A stretch of 64,000 nt of DNA from Calothrix sp. HK-06 (GTDB taxonomy: Bacteria; Cyanobacteriota; Cyanobacteriia; Cyanobacteriales; Nostocaceae): positions 1-64,000 of the forward strand of contig NZ_MRCD01000030.1 of assembly GCF_001904745.1 (NCBI RefSeq), written 5' to 3'. Positions 30,614 through 34,496 of the stretch are shown here, in pieces. Made by a program: the position numbers and the translations under genes. Position 1 is the stretch's first letter; each line of letters opens with the position of its first letter. The notes under the pieces are model-generated. The model searched no databases. It saw nothing but the letters and a program-made list of their open reading frames with translations, and was not told where the DNA came from.

Positions 30614-30675
30614 AATGAGTAATATTTATTATAATGGTAAAAGAGAACCATATAAATACGACTTCCAAAATAGGT

Positions 30676-30954
30676 ATGAAATGTGAATTATGTGAACGCG
30701 AGATGGAAGACCTTACCCTCCATCATTTAATTCCCAGGCAATATACCAAACGTAAGAAGCTAGAAACAAGCTCAACTATTGATATTTGTTCACCTTGTCA
30801 TCGTCAGATTCATGCTCTATTTGATAACAAAGTTCTGGCAAAAGAATTAAATACGGTTGAAGCGTTGAAGAGTGAACCACGAATGCATAAATTTATAGCT
30901 TGGGTGAAAAAACAAAATCCCCAGAAACGAGTAACCGTGCATCGCCAAACATAG
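30676..30954 (+). CDS. HNH-endonuclease-domain small protein
   Basis: About 92 residues from MKCELCEREM; a start 14 codons upstream is open. The HNH pattern is complete: CELC at the front, LTLHHLIPRQYTKRK, then ICSPCHRQIHALFDN, so two CxxC pairs bind zinc and the HH...H residues form the beta-beta-alpha metal site. The family is found widely in cyanobacteria as a free-standing small protein with no assigned role. It may nick DNA or RNA. It lies between the MarR region and the sigma-fusion gene, with no operon partner. Confidence 0.82.
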   Translation: MKCELCEREMEDLTLHHLIPRQYTKRKKLETSSTIDICSPCHRQIHALFDNKVLAKELNTVEALKSEPRMHKFIAWVKKQNPQKRVTVHRQT

Positions 30955-31072
30955 ATAATTATCGCAAAAATTATTTTAATATCAAGTTATAATGCTCCCC
31001 TAAGTATATATGCTTAACAGCACAGTTATCCAATTGTAGGTGTTGAGTGTATGCCCAAAATAAATTTTATAT

Positions 31073-31090
31073 TAACTGTATAGTCAGTCA
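31073..31090 (+). promoter_or_regulatory. TetR-operator-like sequence (relict copy)
   Basis: TAACTGTATAGTCAGTCA, followed by TAAATCACATCAGATAGTGA, resembles the promoter/operator of the hydrolase-tetR operon 3.4 kb away (TGACTGTCTATTCAGTCA, then TAAACTATATTAGTATAGTG). No gene follows it on this side; it may be a duplicated promoter left behind, or a second operator. Confidence 0.5.
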
Positions 31091-31163
31091 TAAATCACAT
31101 CAGATAGTGATGGTACCGATATGAGCTACAAACGATAAAAAACCCAAGCGTTGCTCCTTAGTT

Positions 31164-34130
31164 TTAACGATTAGCACAGTTGTGTTGGATTTTTGTAACA
31201 AATTGTAAATCTTCCATTGCGCCCTGATAATCTTTTAGAGCAGCACGAACACTACTCCGTTTGTTGTAGGCTTTCGCATCATTAGGGTTTATACGCAGTA
31301 ATGCATTTAAATCTTCAAGCGCTTGCTGGTAATTTCCCAAAGTGTAATGAACATTAGCTCTATTATAATAAGCTTCGGCAAAGGCAGGATTAATTTTCAA
31401 AGCTTGGTCATAGTCTTTAAGTGCTTTTTGATACTCACTTAAGTTTTCATAAATAAGTCCACGGTGGTAGTATATTTGAACATTTTTAGGATTAATTAGT
31501 ACTACCTGAGAATAGTCTTTGAGTGCTTCTTGATAATTCTCCAAACGATGATGTGCAAGTCCTCGCCGACTGTAAGCTTCGGTAAGTTCAGGACAAATAC
31601 ATAAAGCTTGATTGTAATTCTCAATAGCTTTATATAAATCTCCCAGTTGATCAAAGGAAATTCCTCGATATAAATAAGCTTCCGTATAGTCAGGTCTTAT
31701 ATATAACGCCTGATTGTAGTTATTAATAGCTGCCTGTATCTGTCCTTGGGTATTACGGACAATTCCACAGTACAAATAAGCTAAGGCTTCGTTAGAATTA
31801 AGAGAAATTATCTTCCTGTAATCCTCGATTGCTTTTTGACCATCTCTTAAATAGTAGTAGATATGACCTCTTTGGTAGTAAGCTTCTACATATTGAGGGT
31901 TAAGGGAAATAGCTTGAGTAAAATCTTCAATTGCCGCTTGAGCATATTTTAACTTGATCTGAGCTAGTCCTCTAAAGTAGTATAATTGGGCATTACTGGG
32001 ATTTAGCTTTAATGCTTGAGTCAAGTTTTCAATTTCTCCCAAAAAATCTCCACATTTGTGACAAGCTATTGCGATTTGAAAATAATCATTTGCATTTTTT
32101 TTCTGTTGTTTATAGATGTTATCTTGGTTTACAGTACATTCCTCTTGTTCATAACTTTTTTGTAAATTACCTAACTGGTCTCTACAAATGTATTCTTGAA
32201 GAACAATGTTGCGGTTGGGGTGGCGTAATTTGCGGATTGCTTTCGCTTCAATTTGGCGAATTCGCTCGCGGGTTTCGTTAAATATGTAAGCAATTTCCTC
32301 AAGAGTCTTCATGCGTCCATCATCAAAACCATAACGTAGTCTTATGACATCACGTTCACGATGGCTAAGAGAATTAAGTACTTTTTCTAAGTCTTCACGC
32401 AACAAATTTTTATAAAGATATTCTTCTTGGCTTGGTTCCTCCGCTTCTATAACATCTGCTAAATATAGATATTCGTTTATACCCTCCTCATTAAAGCAGC
32501 GCTCTTTTTCTATATAAATAGGAGTTTCTAGTGAAATAGGATGTTGAACTAATTGAACAACAAAACGTAACTTCTCAATGGCGATTTGCATACGTTCGGC
32601 AATTTCTGCTTCGGTAGGTTTACGACCCATCTCTTGAGAAAGCAACTTGCAAGTTTTTATAATTCTAGAAATAGTCTCGTATACGTGAATCGGCAATTTG
32701 ATAGTACGCGATTGCTCGCTAATTGCGCGGTTAATAGCTTTACTAATCCACCATGTCGCATATGTAGGAAATTTATAACCTTTTTCGCAATCAAATTTTT
32801 CAGCCGCGCGTATTAAACCTAAACTACCTTCTTGAATCAAGTCTTGAAACACCAATCCTTGATTAATATATTTTTTGGCAATTGATACTACAAGACGCAA
32901 GTTAGATACAACTAGCTTATTCTTCGCGCGTCTCAAGATATGAAGACGGTTACGAAATTGTGGCACGGATAGTTGTAAAGCTTCTGCCCATTCAATATCT
33001 TTAGGGTCGCGGTCTAGTTGCTGTGAAAGTGCTTCACGAACTCTTTCAAATTCCAGTAAATCAGCAATTTGTCGTGTCAGTTGAATTTCTTCATCAGCAC
33101 GTAACATACGAATCCGACCAATTTCTTCTAGGTACAGGCGAATTGAGTCTTCCGTATAGCATTTTTTTTGAGTTTGCTTACAATCATGTAATTTTACATC
33201 ATTATTATCATCGCTGTCTTTATTCTCTGTTGTGGTTTCTAAAATTTCATCGTTTTCCTCGCTAAAATCATTGCTTAACAACTCTTGTTTATATTCGATA
33301 GATATTTTCAAATTTTCCTGAGCATTAATACTGTTTGAGGCTAATTGATTTACTGAATTTTGATATGATTTCTTCTTTTCACTTTCTGTTAAAACCTTTG
33401 GTTTACTCTCTATAACTTTGTCTAATTCTCTATATGGCAACTCAACAGCTTTAAACACTGGACAATCTACCAACAAATCATCAGTTTCGTAAAATTCTTC
33501 TGTTTTTACTGGAATATCTTTCAAGGAAGTCGTTGATAATGTATTAATGTATGTTTGATTCGTTACACCAAAAGCAGATAACAATCGGTGCCATTGTTCT
33601 TCATCTAATTGTTTTTGTTTATTTGCAGAACCTATAGTTAATTTATTTTTTAAAATATCTAATTTAAAATGTTCTTTAATTAGTATAGCACCCGTTTGAA
33701 GTAAATTATCAAACCCTTTTAATTTCCACTGTTCTTGATGAATAAAGGGAATAGCGACTCGAAAGTTGAAAGATAATAAGTTACAAAAATCTAATCGTTC
33801 ACGTAAGTTTTTTTTTAATGCGAACATCTGGTCTTGTGCTTGAATTACTGGTCTTGTTTTCGATTCATACCAGTTTTCCATGCTCCATTCCGAACCTTTA
33901 ATACTGACAATATTATTTATATAGCATCCTTTACATTCAATTATCCATAATCCTAATTGAGGATGAACAATAAGGATATCTATTTCTTTTTCTAAATTTC
34001 CGTTCTTGTAAAATAGCTGAAAACGATGAAATGCCACGCCAGGTTCGCTGTTAAAAGTCTTTTTTAGCTTCTCCCAGACAAATTTCTCAGCTTTGTGGGC
34101 ATTATCAATATTTTGAGGATAGAATTCCAT
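31164..34130 (-). CDS. NERD nuclease-like, sigma-70 and TPR fusion protein
   Basis: 988 residues in three parts. Residues 10-120 form a NERD domain with an intact PD-(D/E)xK core: Asp51, Glu65 and Lys67 (LWIIECKG). A charged linker runs to about 325. Residues 328-650 are a complete group 2 sigma-70: region 1.2 DSIRLYLEEIGRIRML, region 2 LRLVVSIAKKYINQGL with FPTYATWWISKAINRAI, region 3, and region 4 with LRYGFDDGRMKTLEEIAYIF and RERIRQIEAKAIRKLR. Residues 683-988 carry about nine TPR units (34-residue spacing, AEAYYNRANVHYTLGNYQQA type). One uninterrupted frame covers it, so it is not an assembly artefact of neighbours. It may load polymerase on promoters in response to a TPR-bound partner; the nuclease part may be regulatory or protective. 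The fusion is unfamiliar to me. Confidence 0.9.
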   Translation of the reverse strand: MEFYPQNIDNAHKAEKFVWEKLKKTFNSEPGVAFHRFQLFYKNGNLEKEIDILIVHPQLGLWIIECKGCYINNIVSIKGSEWSMENWYESKTRPVIQAQDQMFALKKNLRERLDFCNLLSFNFRVAIPFIHQEQWKLKGFDNLLQTGAILIKEHFKLDILKNKLTIGSANKQKQLDEEQWHRLLSAFGVTNQTYINTLSTTSLKDIPVKTEEFYETDDLLVDCPVFKAVELPYRELDKVIESKPKVLTESEKKKSYQNSVNQLASNSINAQENLKISIEYKQELLSNDFSEENDEILETTTENKDSDDNNDVKLHDCKQTQKKCYTEDSIRLYLEEIGRIRMLRADEEIQLTRQIADLLEFERVREALSQQLDRDPKDIEWAEALQLSVPQFRNRLHILRRAKNKLVVSNLRLVVSIAKKYINQGLVFQDLIQEGSLGLIRAAEKFDCEKGYKFPTYATWWISKAINRAISEQSRTIKLPIHVYETISRIIKTCKLLSQEMGRKPTEAEIAERMQIAIEKLRFVVQLVQHPISLETPIYIEKERCFNEEGINEYLYLADVIEAEEPSQEEYLYKNLLREDLEKVLNSLSHRERDVIRLRYGFDDGRMKTLEEIAYIFNETRERIRQIEAKAIRKLRHPNRNIVLQEYICRDQLGNLQKSYEQEECTVNQDNIYKQQKKNANDYFQIAIACHKCGDFLGEIENLTQALKLNPSNAQLYYFRGLAQIKLKYAQAAIEDFTQAISLNPQYVEAYYQRGHIYYYLRDGQKAIEDYRKIISLNSNEALAYLYCGIVRNTQGQIQAAINNYNQALYIRPDYTEAYLYRGISFDQLGDLYKAIENYNQALCICPELTEAYSRRGLAHHRLENYQEALKDYSQVVLINPKNVQIYYHRGLIYENLSEYQKALKDYDQALKINPAFAEAYYNRANVHYTLGNYQQALEDLNALLRINPNDAKAYNKRSSVRAALKDYQGAMEDLQFVTKIQHNCANR

Positions 34131-34458
34131 AATTTTAACATATAATCAATAACCATTATTCTTAGAGTTCCCAAAATATAAGGTGTTATTAACTTCATCA
34201 GGTTAAATATATTTACGAACATTTTCATTGCCATTCCTTAGTACATACTTATTGCATGAAAGGCGTGCGCGTGGAAATCATCTCAGGCTTCAGCTAAGAA
34301 ACATATTATGGTAATAGATACTAACTATTACTATAAGTTGTTATCCATCTTTGAAACTGACGTGTGAGACAATATAGGCGTAAAGAGTGTCAAGCTTTAT
34401 GCCGTGGTCACAAGATGACGCTGTACTGTTTCATCTAGCTTTGCTCTGTTATTTTTTG

Positions 34459-34496
34459 TTGACTGTCTATTCAGTCATAAACTATATTAGTATAGT
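34459..34496 (+). promoter_or_regulatory. promoter and TetR operator of the hydrolase-tetR operon
   Basis: TGACTG, six bases, CAGTCA form a perfect inverted repeat over 34460-34477 that overlaps a -35-like TTGACT. TATATT at 34484 is a plausible -10 (19-base spacing). The rest of the 34131-34568 gap shows no gene. Confidence 0.6.

Follow-up and report, generated by a model that had tools for sequence, protein, structure and literature searches.

The familiar role of sigma factors is to select promoters, and Cas6 is an RNA-cutting enzyme; fusions of sigma factors as such have been documented before, albeit uncommonly. The main text of Gevin et al. (2024; PMC11119718) reports 59 architectures of cyanobacterial sigma70 proteins with 29 accessory domains at the N- or C-ends, TPR_MalT, NB-ARC, WD40 and Cas6 among those listed, and from figures given there we estimate that ~3% of cyanobacterial sigma70s carry an accessory domain; with such values, the statement in a preliminary description of the present locus that sigma factors are rarely fused is a fair one. 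That main text, as distinct from the supplementary tables, makes no mention of NERD. TPR extensions also occur at the C-terminus of ECF42 sigmas, where they are essential for sigma activity (PMC8999054). Among conflict systems, TALON pairs NERD, TPR and TBP (PMC12458937), the MZA anti-phage system includes a sigma-70 domain in its protein MzaA, and the biochemistry of NERD itself is described as unproven (PMC9040797). Our literature searches recovered sigma fusions, but none joining NERD or PD-(D/E)XK to SigA, in keeping with the preliminary description, whose author knew of no NERD-sigma fusion.

Architecture of the fusion gene

The window, by which we mean the whole stretch of DNA analysed, comprises 64,000 nt of Calothrix sp. 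HK-06 (NZ_MRCD01000030.1, positions 1-64,000; its own genome is designated G000, and other genomes carry similar numbers). A single ATG-initiated frame of 988 aa runs from 34130 to 31164 on the minus strand, the strand having been omitted from the preliminary description (Table 1). All Pfam matches of the protein (NERD, four Sigma70 regions and TPR_1) exceeded the curated cut-offs. The NERD match (PF08378) spans residues 12-111 with 44.5 bits against a cut-off of 22.1 and an hmmscan E of 2.4e-11; a PF08378 search across the own genome returned 0 matches, which we treat as a first-look miss and not as a count. The sigma matches cover residues 328-357 (Sigma70_r1_2), 406-476 (r2), 485-543 (r3) and 584-637 (r4). 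TPR_1 was detected in 7 stretches, and nine 34-residue units fit the repeat region, eight full units being printed to residue 953 and the ninth read from the sequence. Pfam and the motif alignment thus agree with the preliminary description in placing a NERD domain with intact Asp51, Glu65 and Lys67, a complete sigma factor and nine TPRs in one frame. No TBP or OB domain was detected in the protein by Pfam. In the acidic linker ahead of region 1.2, SigA-like residues are clear in the orthologues and worn down in the window copy.

Table 1. Features of the nuclease-sigma-TPR gene and its flanks, in window coordinates
Feature	Coordinates	Strand	Basis and remarks
Complete fusion gene, NERD - SigA-like sigma-70 - TPR, 988 aa	31164..34130	-	ORF + Pfam
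NERD-type PD-(D/E)XK nuclease-like domain, residues 1-200	33531..34130	-	Pfam part 12-111 = 33798-34097
Catalytic segment E49-x-D51 ... E65-x-K67	33930..33986	-	Alignment of NERD rows
Acidic linker replacing SigA's own N-terminal tail	33150..33308	-	Sequence comparison
Sigma region 1.2	33060..33149	-	Pfam
Sigma region 2	32703..32915	-	Pfam; core-binding 2.2: 1/22 SigA-invariant residues changed
Region 2.4 (-10 helix)	32685..32747	-	7/21 SigA-invariant residues changed
Sigma region 3	32502..32678	-	Pfam
Sigma finger (region 3.2) insertion, 11 aa	32484..32516	-	Comparison with SigA
Sigma region 4	32220..32381	-	Pfam; 4.2: 4/36 SigA-invariant residues changed
Nine tetratricopeptide repeats, residues 682 to ~985	31182..32087	-	Pfam + unit fit
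Dyad repeat, upstream copy	34451..34490		Sequence search
Dyad repeat, downstream copy, 78% identical to upstream	31064..31103		Sequence search

Relatives and distribution

The same domain order, which the preliminary description had proposed to look for in other cyanobacteria, was recovered with all modules outside the genus: two further genera contribute three genomes with full-length orthologues at 57-62% identity (G270, 960 aa by alignment; G460 and G499, 978 and 972 aa by Pfam). Since these independent genomes carry all modules, neither misassembly nor chance accounts for the fusion; rather than being lost in all relatives, the architecture has been conserved, with purifying selection acting on the modules. 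Truncated, broken or remnant copies were present in five further genomes (G472, G503, G167, G005 and G002), and the nuclease-sigma-TPR design occurs in four families of the order. From these comparisons the gene appears to be a standalone member of a small, patchy cyanobacterial nuclease-SigA-TPR family that has been lost often and repeatedly, and the frequent decay of copies could reflect weak or lost function. The family chassis is best described, from the alignments, as a whole SigA copy with C-terminal TPRs, the sigma finger being changed in four copies.

We recognised no shared neighbour gene in the ORF lists of G000, G270, G074, G179 and the G460/G472/G499/G503 group, and neither a defence-island context nor a linked target operon was recognised in the neighbour ORF lists. 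An HNH-like neighbour persists at the site in G002-G005, from which the fusion is gone; this persistence and the ORF lists argue against an obligate partner gene. A 650-aa NERD-sigma query found no record covering at least 80% of its length among 72,556 plasmid and 50,697 phage records, a scan of viral contigs with NERD peptides of close relatives yielded no match, and a search with the finger-insert pattern yielded none either, so spread on plasmids or phages found no support in these searches. The gene is flanked by a dyad repeat whose 20-base core (≤2 mismatches) occurs in this genome only at the two flanks. Both repeats are present in G003, where the gene is absent, and the two window copies align to a single site in G004; the repeats may represent the ends of a mobile cassette.

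The nuclease domains

The residues E49/D51, E65, K67, Q97 and Q101 are intact in the window protein, and the PD-(D/E)XK-type pattern E/D..D..ExK with QxxxQ is kept in 6/6 aligned NERD fusions. Across 73 aligned NERD rows, a set in which fusions and some loci appear more than once, the conserved counts were 72 for D51, 71 for E65, 65 for K67, 67 for Q97 and 67 for Q101. The PF08378 cut-off was also passed by G460, G499 and G503. Scanned against Pfam at E up to 1e-4, the G270 orthologue returned no NERD match; we assign its N-terminal domain to NERD because it aligns at 57% with that of the window protein and keeps all motif residues. The domain had no sequence relatives in the PDB at E up to 1. 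In a tree of the NERD rows, the fused NERDs split from every other row with 98% support. Among their closest relatives outside the family, at up to 47-48% identity, the two that were scanned, from G013 and G002, are NERD-UvrD helicases (PADLOC C3a187 'NERD+UvrD' and 'Helicase'), which carry a helicase where the fusions carry SigA-TPR; they share the MEF-P start of the fusion NERDs and match PADLOC 'NERD+UvrD' at 56.2 and 52.9 bits.

In a second lineage, new to this work, a homologous chassis of sigma and TPR carries not NERD but a PD-(D/E)XK nuclease of Cas4/RecB-like type. Its G074 member is a 785-aa protein with PDDEXK_1, a full sigma and TPR, while that of G179 combines PDDEXK_1 with sigma r1.2-r3, a TPR remnant and GH1; their nuclease-sigma parts are 60% identical, and both match Cas4 models weakly (18-21 bits, PADLOC). 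Homology of the chassis is indicated by shuffle tests of the G074 finger insert (z 21.7 against G460 and 5.9 against G000) and of its sigma-TPR linker (z 11.1 against G270 and 5.6-6.2 against three others), with no similarity between the latter and the linker of the window copy (z -0.2). Both nuclease types retain their catalytic motifs, those of RecB type being read by the usual roles of such motifs. These alignments show that the nuclease module is exchangeable between NERD and Cas4/RecB-like forms. G503 has lost region 4, and none was detected in G179.

The sigma module derives from SigA

The preliminary description had called this part a full group 2 sigma factor. Regions 1.2-4 are indeed complete according to Pfam, but identity and the NCBIfam model PRK07406 RpoD make it a derivative of SigA (group 1) and rule out group 2. 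It is 77.0% identical to the genome's own SigA as against 40.1-41.7% to three of its six sigma paralogues. PRK07406 (cut-off 500) is passed by the window protein (539.4), G270 (641.6) and G499 (679) and failed by the three paralogues (319-367). TIGR02997 is not passed by the window protein (342.8 against 384.5), and is uninformative on group 1 versus group 2 because the three non-SigA paralogues, G270 and G499 all pass. One of these paralogues passes the SigD model and another SigC; the third comes closest to a subfamily without a name, narrowly missing its cut-off. The primary SigA of the genome is encoded by a separate gene at G000:C207 and is 100% identical to that of PCC 7103 over 361 aa; the window fusion is therefore not the genome's primary sigma. 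SigA-like domains also lie within a 1882-aa AAA protein adjoining a PLD-SNF2 helicase in G036 and within a 2289-aa protein whose neighbour on a Brasilonema plasmid is annotated as a helicase.

The best solved relative, chain G of 8h3v, aligns end to end over regions 1.2-4 (E 1.5e-144). The fusion has these regions in common with cyanobacterial SigA, to which it adds the N-terminal nuclease, the C-terminal TPRs, a finger insertion and an altered -10 helix. The insertion measures 11 aa in the window copy and 13 aa in G460, G472 and G074, and is absent in 14/14 SigA sequences (the comparison set comprised 14 of 15, all but that of G042). Of the sigmas in the NERD fusions, that of the window copy has diverged furthest, at 71-77% to SigA, and this copy alone has a clear contrast between core-binding and promoter-contact regions (2.2: 1/22; 2.4: 7/21). 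Summed over six fusions, SigA-invariant residues were changed at 6/132 positions in 2.2, 3/84 in 2.3, 14/126 in 2.4 and 17/180 in 4.2 where present, a weak contrast. By coordinate mapping, the changes in the window -10 helix fall at E. coli positions 436, 437, 440 and 451, which have a role at -12.

For the window protein PADLOC returned only a sigma match to MzaA and a weak TPR match; the former reached 169 bits over model positions 427-669 of 683, leaving the N-terminal ~420 model positions unmatched. Against NCBIfam MzaA the window protein scored 278.6, far below the cut-off of 800, and since three ordinary sigma paralogues scored 259-294 the match is non-specific and argues against MzaA identity. 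The C-terminal TPR extension recalls ECF42, an ECF group with regions 2 and 4 only, whereas the window fusion is of the four-region SigA type with an N-terminal nuclease; the presence of regions 1.2 and 3 places it outside ECF42.

Overwriting of the sigma domain from sigA

Gene conversion has overwritten the sigma domain from the host's own sigA in at least G167, G460, G499 and G503. Between G270 and G460, dS was 0.61 for sigma versus 0.10 for NERD and 0.07 for TPR. In G167 a 445-bp tract is 99.1% identical to the own sigA, with 68-72% identity to the other fusions outside the tract. Monophyly of seven fused sigmas among 11 SigA, a set without the SigA of G044, G049 and G054, was rejected (delta-lnL 177, p-AU 5.6e-7); G499 and G503, whose fused sigmas are missing from one early tree, are represented in later ones. 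Independent fusion events are disfavoured relative to gene conversion, given the homology of NERD, TPR and finger insert from copy to copy. For G499/G503, dN/dS was 0.12 in NERD, 0.05 in sigma and 0.19 in TPR, consistent with purifying selection on all three modules in the pairs computed; the low sigma value is partly inherited owing to sigA conversion.

Discussion

Our preferred reading, which we hold tentatively, is that the protein brings a nuclease to RNA polymerase of the SigA type, probably as a weapon of genome conflict, much like a sigma-based counterpart of TOTE/TALON in a single protein. The SigA part would dock the fusion onto the RNA polymerase core, and possibly onto SigA-type promoters; the TPRs would gate or scaffold the protein; and the nuclease would act on nucleic acid held by or adjoining the polymerase, the most likely target being invading DNA under transcription by the host enzyme. 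Such a polymerase-addressed nuclease fits somewhat better than a nuclease-like sensor in control of an alternative sigma, because the nuclease is exchangeable with its motifs kept, the sigma is re-copied in several copies and two copies lack region 4. A more specific version is possible, though we regard it with some doubt: an interchangeable PD-(D/E)XK nuclease would ride on a counterfeit primary sigma updated by sigA conversion, and would be brought to or released at initiation complexes on invading DNA, or be triggered when a phage protein attacks the counterfeit in mistake for SigA.

The strongest competitor takes the protein as a true SigA-derived alternative sigma in which NERD, as a nucleic-acid sensor, and the TPRs control promoter choice or activity, as TPRs do in ECF42 (PMC8999054). 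The coupling of promoter choice to the sensing of foreign nucleic acid put forward in the preliminary description is of this kind; it is possible but comes second to the nuclease effector, and we consider it rather unlikely. All of regions 1.2-4 are present, the -10 helix changes could shift specificity, and across the six fusions conservation is almost as high in the promoter-contact regions as in the core-binding ones; moreover, region 4.2 is largely kept in the window copy (4/36 changed), as a promoter-binding sigma would need, which counts against a polymerase-addressed nuclease. Yet the use of two nuclease domains that are unrelated and have both kept their motifs exceeds the needs of a sensor, re-copying from sigA opposes a promoter specificity of its own, G503 has lost region 4 and G179 shows none, and the ORF lists revealed no recognisable target operon.

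A bait has to keep pace with what it imitates, and in several copies the sigma domain does keep pace with the resident sigA. The SigA domain might be an integrated decoy for phage proteins that attack or capture host SigA, their binding releasing the nuclease in abortive or direct defence; the patchy distribution with repeated loss and the SigA-like domains adjoining helicases in G036 and on the Brasilonema plasmid also agree with this. We nevertheless judge it improbable, given that gene conversion can be neutral, that no phage anti-SigA partner has been identified for these hosts and that the ORF lists gave no recognisable sign of a defence island. Still less probable, in our estimation, is a short-lived chimera on its way out that has no selected function now. 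Broken, truncated or deleted copies in five genomes and the marked divergence of the window sigma would suit such a fate, but dN/dS lies below 1 in all three modules of the computed pairs, the window copy keeps 988 open codons and its NERD motifs, the design spans four families, and the swap of nucleases retained both catalytic sites.

A swappable nuclease carried by a copy of the primary sigma that sigA has renewed in several lineages would put the transcription-start machinery to a new use, as address or bait; the other SigA-domain proteins found here would fit with this, and it would parallel TBP-based TOTE/TALON. Those systems likewise combine an initiation factor, TPR and a nuclease (NERD in TALON), but they use TBP where the window fusion uses sigma, and they distribute over separate genes, together with OB/CSD and a YprA-like helicase, what the fusion holds in one polypeptide. 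We claim no sequence homology between them; the parallel would be functional, with the cyanobacterial protein as a one-polypeptide counterpart of TOTE/TALON-type conflict systems.

Domain architecture and SigA origin of the fusion protein

Pfam recovered in a single 988-aa protein all of the modules that a preliminary description had read in one frame: a NERD domain (44.5 bits, cut-off 22.1), sigma-70 regions 1.2, 2, 3, and 4, and TPRs. The nine TPRs proposed there fit the C-terminal 300 residues when taken as 34-residue units (eight of them full), and the NERD domain has the catalytic Asp51, Glu65, and Lys67 described as intact, together with E49 and a Q97-x-x-x-Q101 motif.

The sigma part had been assigned to group 2; our comparisons place it with SigA instead. 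Canonical SigA is encoded separately in the Calothrix sp. HK-06 genome (9.99 Mb, 243 contigs), at C207; the window sigma is 70–71% identical to it across 358–374 residues and 77% across the core, versus 40–42% for three other sigma paralogues of the genome, one of which passed the SigD model and another the SigC model. With the NCBIfam RpoD equivalog PRK07406 (cut-off 500), the window protein scored 539.4 and the fusion proteins of genomes G270 and G499 scored 641.6 and 679, whereas the three paralogues failed (319–367). The window protein fell below the cut-off of TIGR02997 (342.8 against 384.5), which all three paralogues passed; as non-SigA paralogues pass it, this model is unable to tell sigma groups apart. 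Judging from these identities and scores, the sigma part of the window protein derives from SigA. In orthologues the linker ahead of region 1.2 is the acidic N-terminus of SigA itself, and thus the whole of SigA was captured.

Coordinates of the fusion genes and of neighboring or related features
Feature	Location	Strand	Description
NERD-SigA-TPR fusion gene	window 31164–34130	minus	988-aa open frame, ATG at 34130 through to stop
40-bp dyad repeat	window 31064–31103 and 34451–34490		Flanks of fusion gene
HNH endonuclease-like gene	window 30634–30954		Small; named by its sequence; convergent with fusion
ParDE-like toxin-antitoxin pair	G002, L133:4400–4965		Named by its sequence
PDDEXK_1 fusion	G179, L137:4701–7880		PDDEXK_1 nuclease, SigA regions 1.2–3, TPR remnant, GH1 glycosidase
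Sigma-AAA_22 gene	G036, L121:531–9487		1882 aa; Pfam sigma regions at 234–496, 74% to SigA
pBOCT2 sigma gene	Brasilonema octagenarum, L087:6569–13438		2289-aa 'hypothetical protein'; N-terminal SigA-like sigma (71–370)
WD40-SigA gene	G173, L136:5863–9576		1237 aa; WD40 repeats, proline-threonine linker, C-terminal SigA domain

Distribution and loss

NERD queries were run on overlapping samples of 60 relatives, 388 genomes of the order, 217 of the family, and 386 of the phylum. Matches with E up to 1e-40 were found in 11 of the 217 family genomes. NERD-SigA-TPR genes account for six of these (HK-06, G270, G460, G472, G499, and G503), and the other five have lower identity (38–48%), the two of them that were scanned (G002 and G013) being NERD-UvrD helicases. 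Three fusions came from the order sample: HK-06 and G270 have one each, and G167, a genome of another family, has a broken copy. The same domain order, which the preliminary description had proposed to look for in other cyanobacteria, was found complete in G270 (62% identical to the window protein), G460, and G499, so that with HK-06 four genomes have an open frame with all modules. The G503 fusion is without region 4, that of G472 has an in-frame stop inside the linker, and the G167 copy is broken up and has a transposase close by that looks IS630-like from its sequence. NERD was listed by Pfam in G460, G499, and G503; for G270 a Pfam scan with E up to 1e-4 gave no NERD, and the domain was recognized there by alignment. 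In the 77 loci of the SigA search (L022–L098), sigma occurs only in the fusions named here and in a Brasilonema protein.

The gene has been lost within the genus of HK-06. Calothrix PCC 7103 keeps 168 bp of the fusion 5′ end, with the counterpart of window 31080–33961 deleted, and what is left in G002 is 143 bp from upstream of the gene together with 46 bp encoding TPR (95.7% identity). The coding parts of these remnants do not overlap, so an ancestor had the gene at this site and at least two losses followed. G003 and G004 keep the site, with gene DNA not recognizable there. The 20-base core of the flanking repeat, at up to two mismatches, occurs only beside the fusion gene in the 10-Mb HK-06 genome. 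The neighboring HNH-like gene remains at the site in congeners without the fusion, and in G002 the ParDE-like pair occupies the place of the deleted fusion.

Probable gene conversion by sigA

Between G270 and G460, dS is 0.10 for NERD and 0.07 for TPR versus 0.61 for sigma. The G460 sigma has stretches at 96–98% identity to its own sigA interspersed with stretches at 73–90%, and the broken G167 copy has a 445-bp sigma tract 99.1% identical to the sigA of that genome, its NERD and TPR DNA being 68–72% identical to other fusions. In trees of the two halves of sigma, the G499 and G503 copies cluster with the SigA of their own genomes (support 92 and 77), and a constrained tree uniting the fused sigmas (7 fused and 11 SigA sequences) was rejected (delta-lnL 177, p-AU 5.6e-7); in contrast, NERD and TPR of six fusions agree with each other in their grouping. 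Conversion of the fusion by sigA is the simplest account. The window copy, the most diverged, has no recent conversion tract of this kind.

A second nuclease and other SigA-domain proteins

SigA-like matches were collected from 148 genomes of the order; among the matches listed, long frames revealed at least two further fusions, those of G173 and G179. The G179 protein carries a PDDEXK_1 nuclease, and its GH1 domain is fused in frame (profile positions 38–452 of 453). A search with the G179 nuclease gave matches in 95 of 388 genomes, G074 being the only other fusion recognized; the other matches listed have open frames of 146–336 aa. The G074 protein (785 aa) joins PDDEXK_1 to a complete sigma and TPRs. 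Its insertion in the sigma finger (region 3.2) matches that of G460 (z 21.7), and its sigma-TPR linker matches that of G270 (z 11.1, reached in 0 of 5000 shuffles). In the window copy the linker has diverged so far that no likeness to that of G074 is visible (z −0.2). Given the common finger insertion and linker, the sigma-TPR module is homologous between the NERD and PDDEXK_1 fusions, the nuclease having been exchanged. Both PDDEXK_1 domains have intact H, D, DxK, and QxxxY motifs of RecB/Cas4 nucleases, and PADLOC gave weak Cas4 matches for both.

The SigA domain of the G173 protein is ~91% identical to SigA. The sigma-AAA_22 gene of G036 lies directly 3′ of a PLD-SNF2 helicase gene (PADLOC C3a139), a pair that looks like a sigma-bearing defense operon. 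The pBOCT2 plasmid protein, with an AAA_22 match under the cut-off and a gene adjoining an annotated helicase, is of the same kind.

Possible function and comparison with known systems

Counted against residues invariant in 14 SigA, the window copy is changed at 1/22 positions in the core-binding region 2.2, 7/21 in region 2.4 (the −10 helix), 16/29 in the sigma finger, and 4/36 in region 4.2. When the six NERD fusions are taken together, the changes amount to 6/132 in region 2.2, 3/84 in 2.3, 14/126 in 2.4 (altered in five of the six), and 17/180 in 4.2 where present, a weak contrast between core binding and promoter contact. The finger insertion (11–13 residues) is common to HK-06, G460, G472, and G074 and missing in 14 of 14 SigA. 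All modules have dN/dS below 1 in the computed pairs; for G499/G503 the values are 0.12 (NERD), 0.19 (TPR), and 0.05 (sigma, a figure partly inherited from sigA).

Three features suggest that the fusion aims a nuclease at complexes of RNA polymerase or SigA: the motifs are intact in both of the unrelated nuclease domains, the SigA part has been re-copied from the host sigA in several lineages, and two copies have lost region 4. The SigA part would take the nuclease to these complexes, with the TPRs as its likely gate. Alternatively, the fusion may be a sigma factor derived from SigA with its own promoter choice, or a SigA decoy for phage proteins.

The preliminary description knew of no described NERD-sigma fusion, and the literature searched, the coverage of which is incomplete, likewise gave us no description of SigA fused to NERD or PD-(D/E)XK. 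Among the 29 accessory domains of cyanobacterial sigma factors in Gevin et al. 2024 is Cas6, and NERD is absent from the main text of that paper (PMC11119718). MzaA is termed the sigma factor of the mzaABCDE system (PMC9523054); with the MzaA model, ordinary sigma paralogues score as high as the window protein. Conflict systems in which ECF-type HTH domains accompany TRADD-N and TPR have been described (PMC8195603), and NERD is found too in Mokosh type I and Nhi-like defense systems (PMC10952713). The nearest working analogy is TOTE/TALON, which combine TBP, TPR, and a nuclease, that of TALON being NERD (PMC12458937); the fusions described here combine sigma, TPR, and a nuclease.
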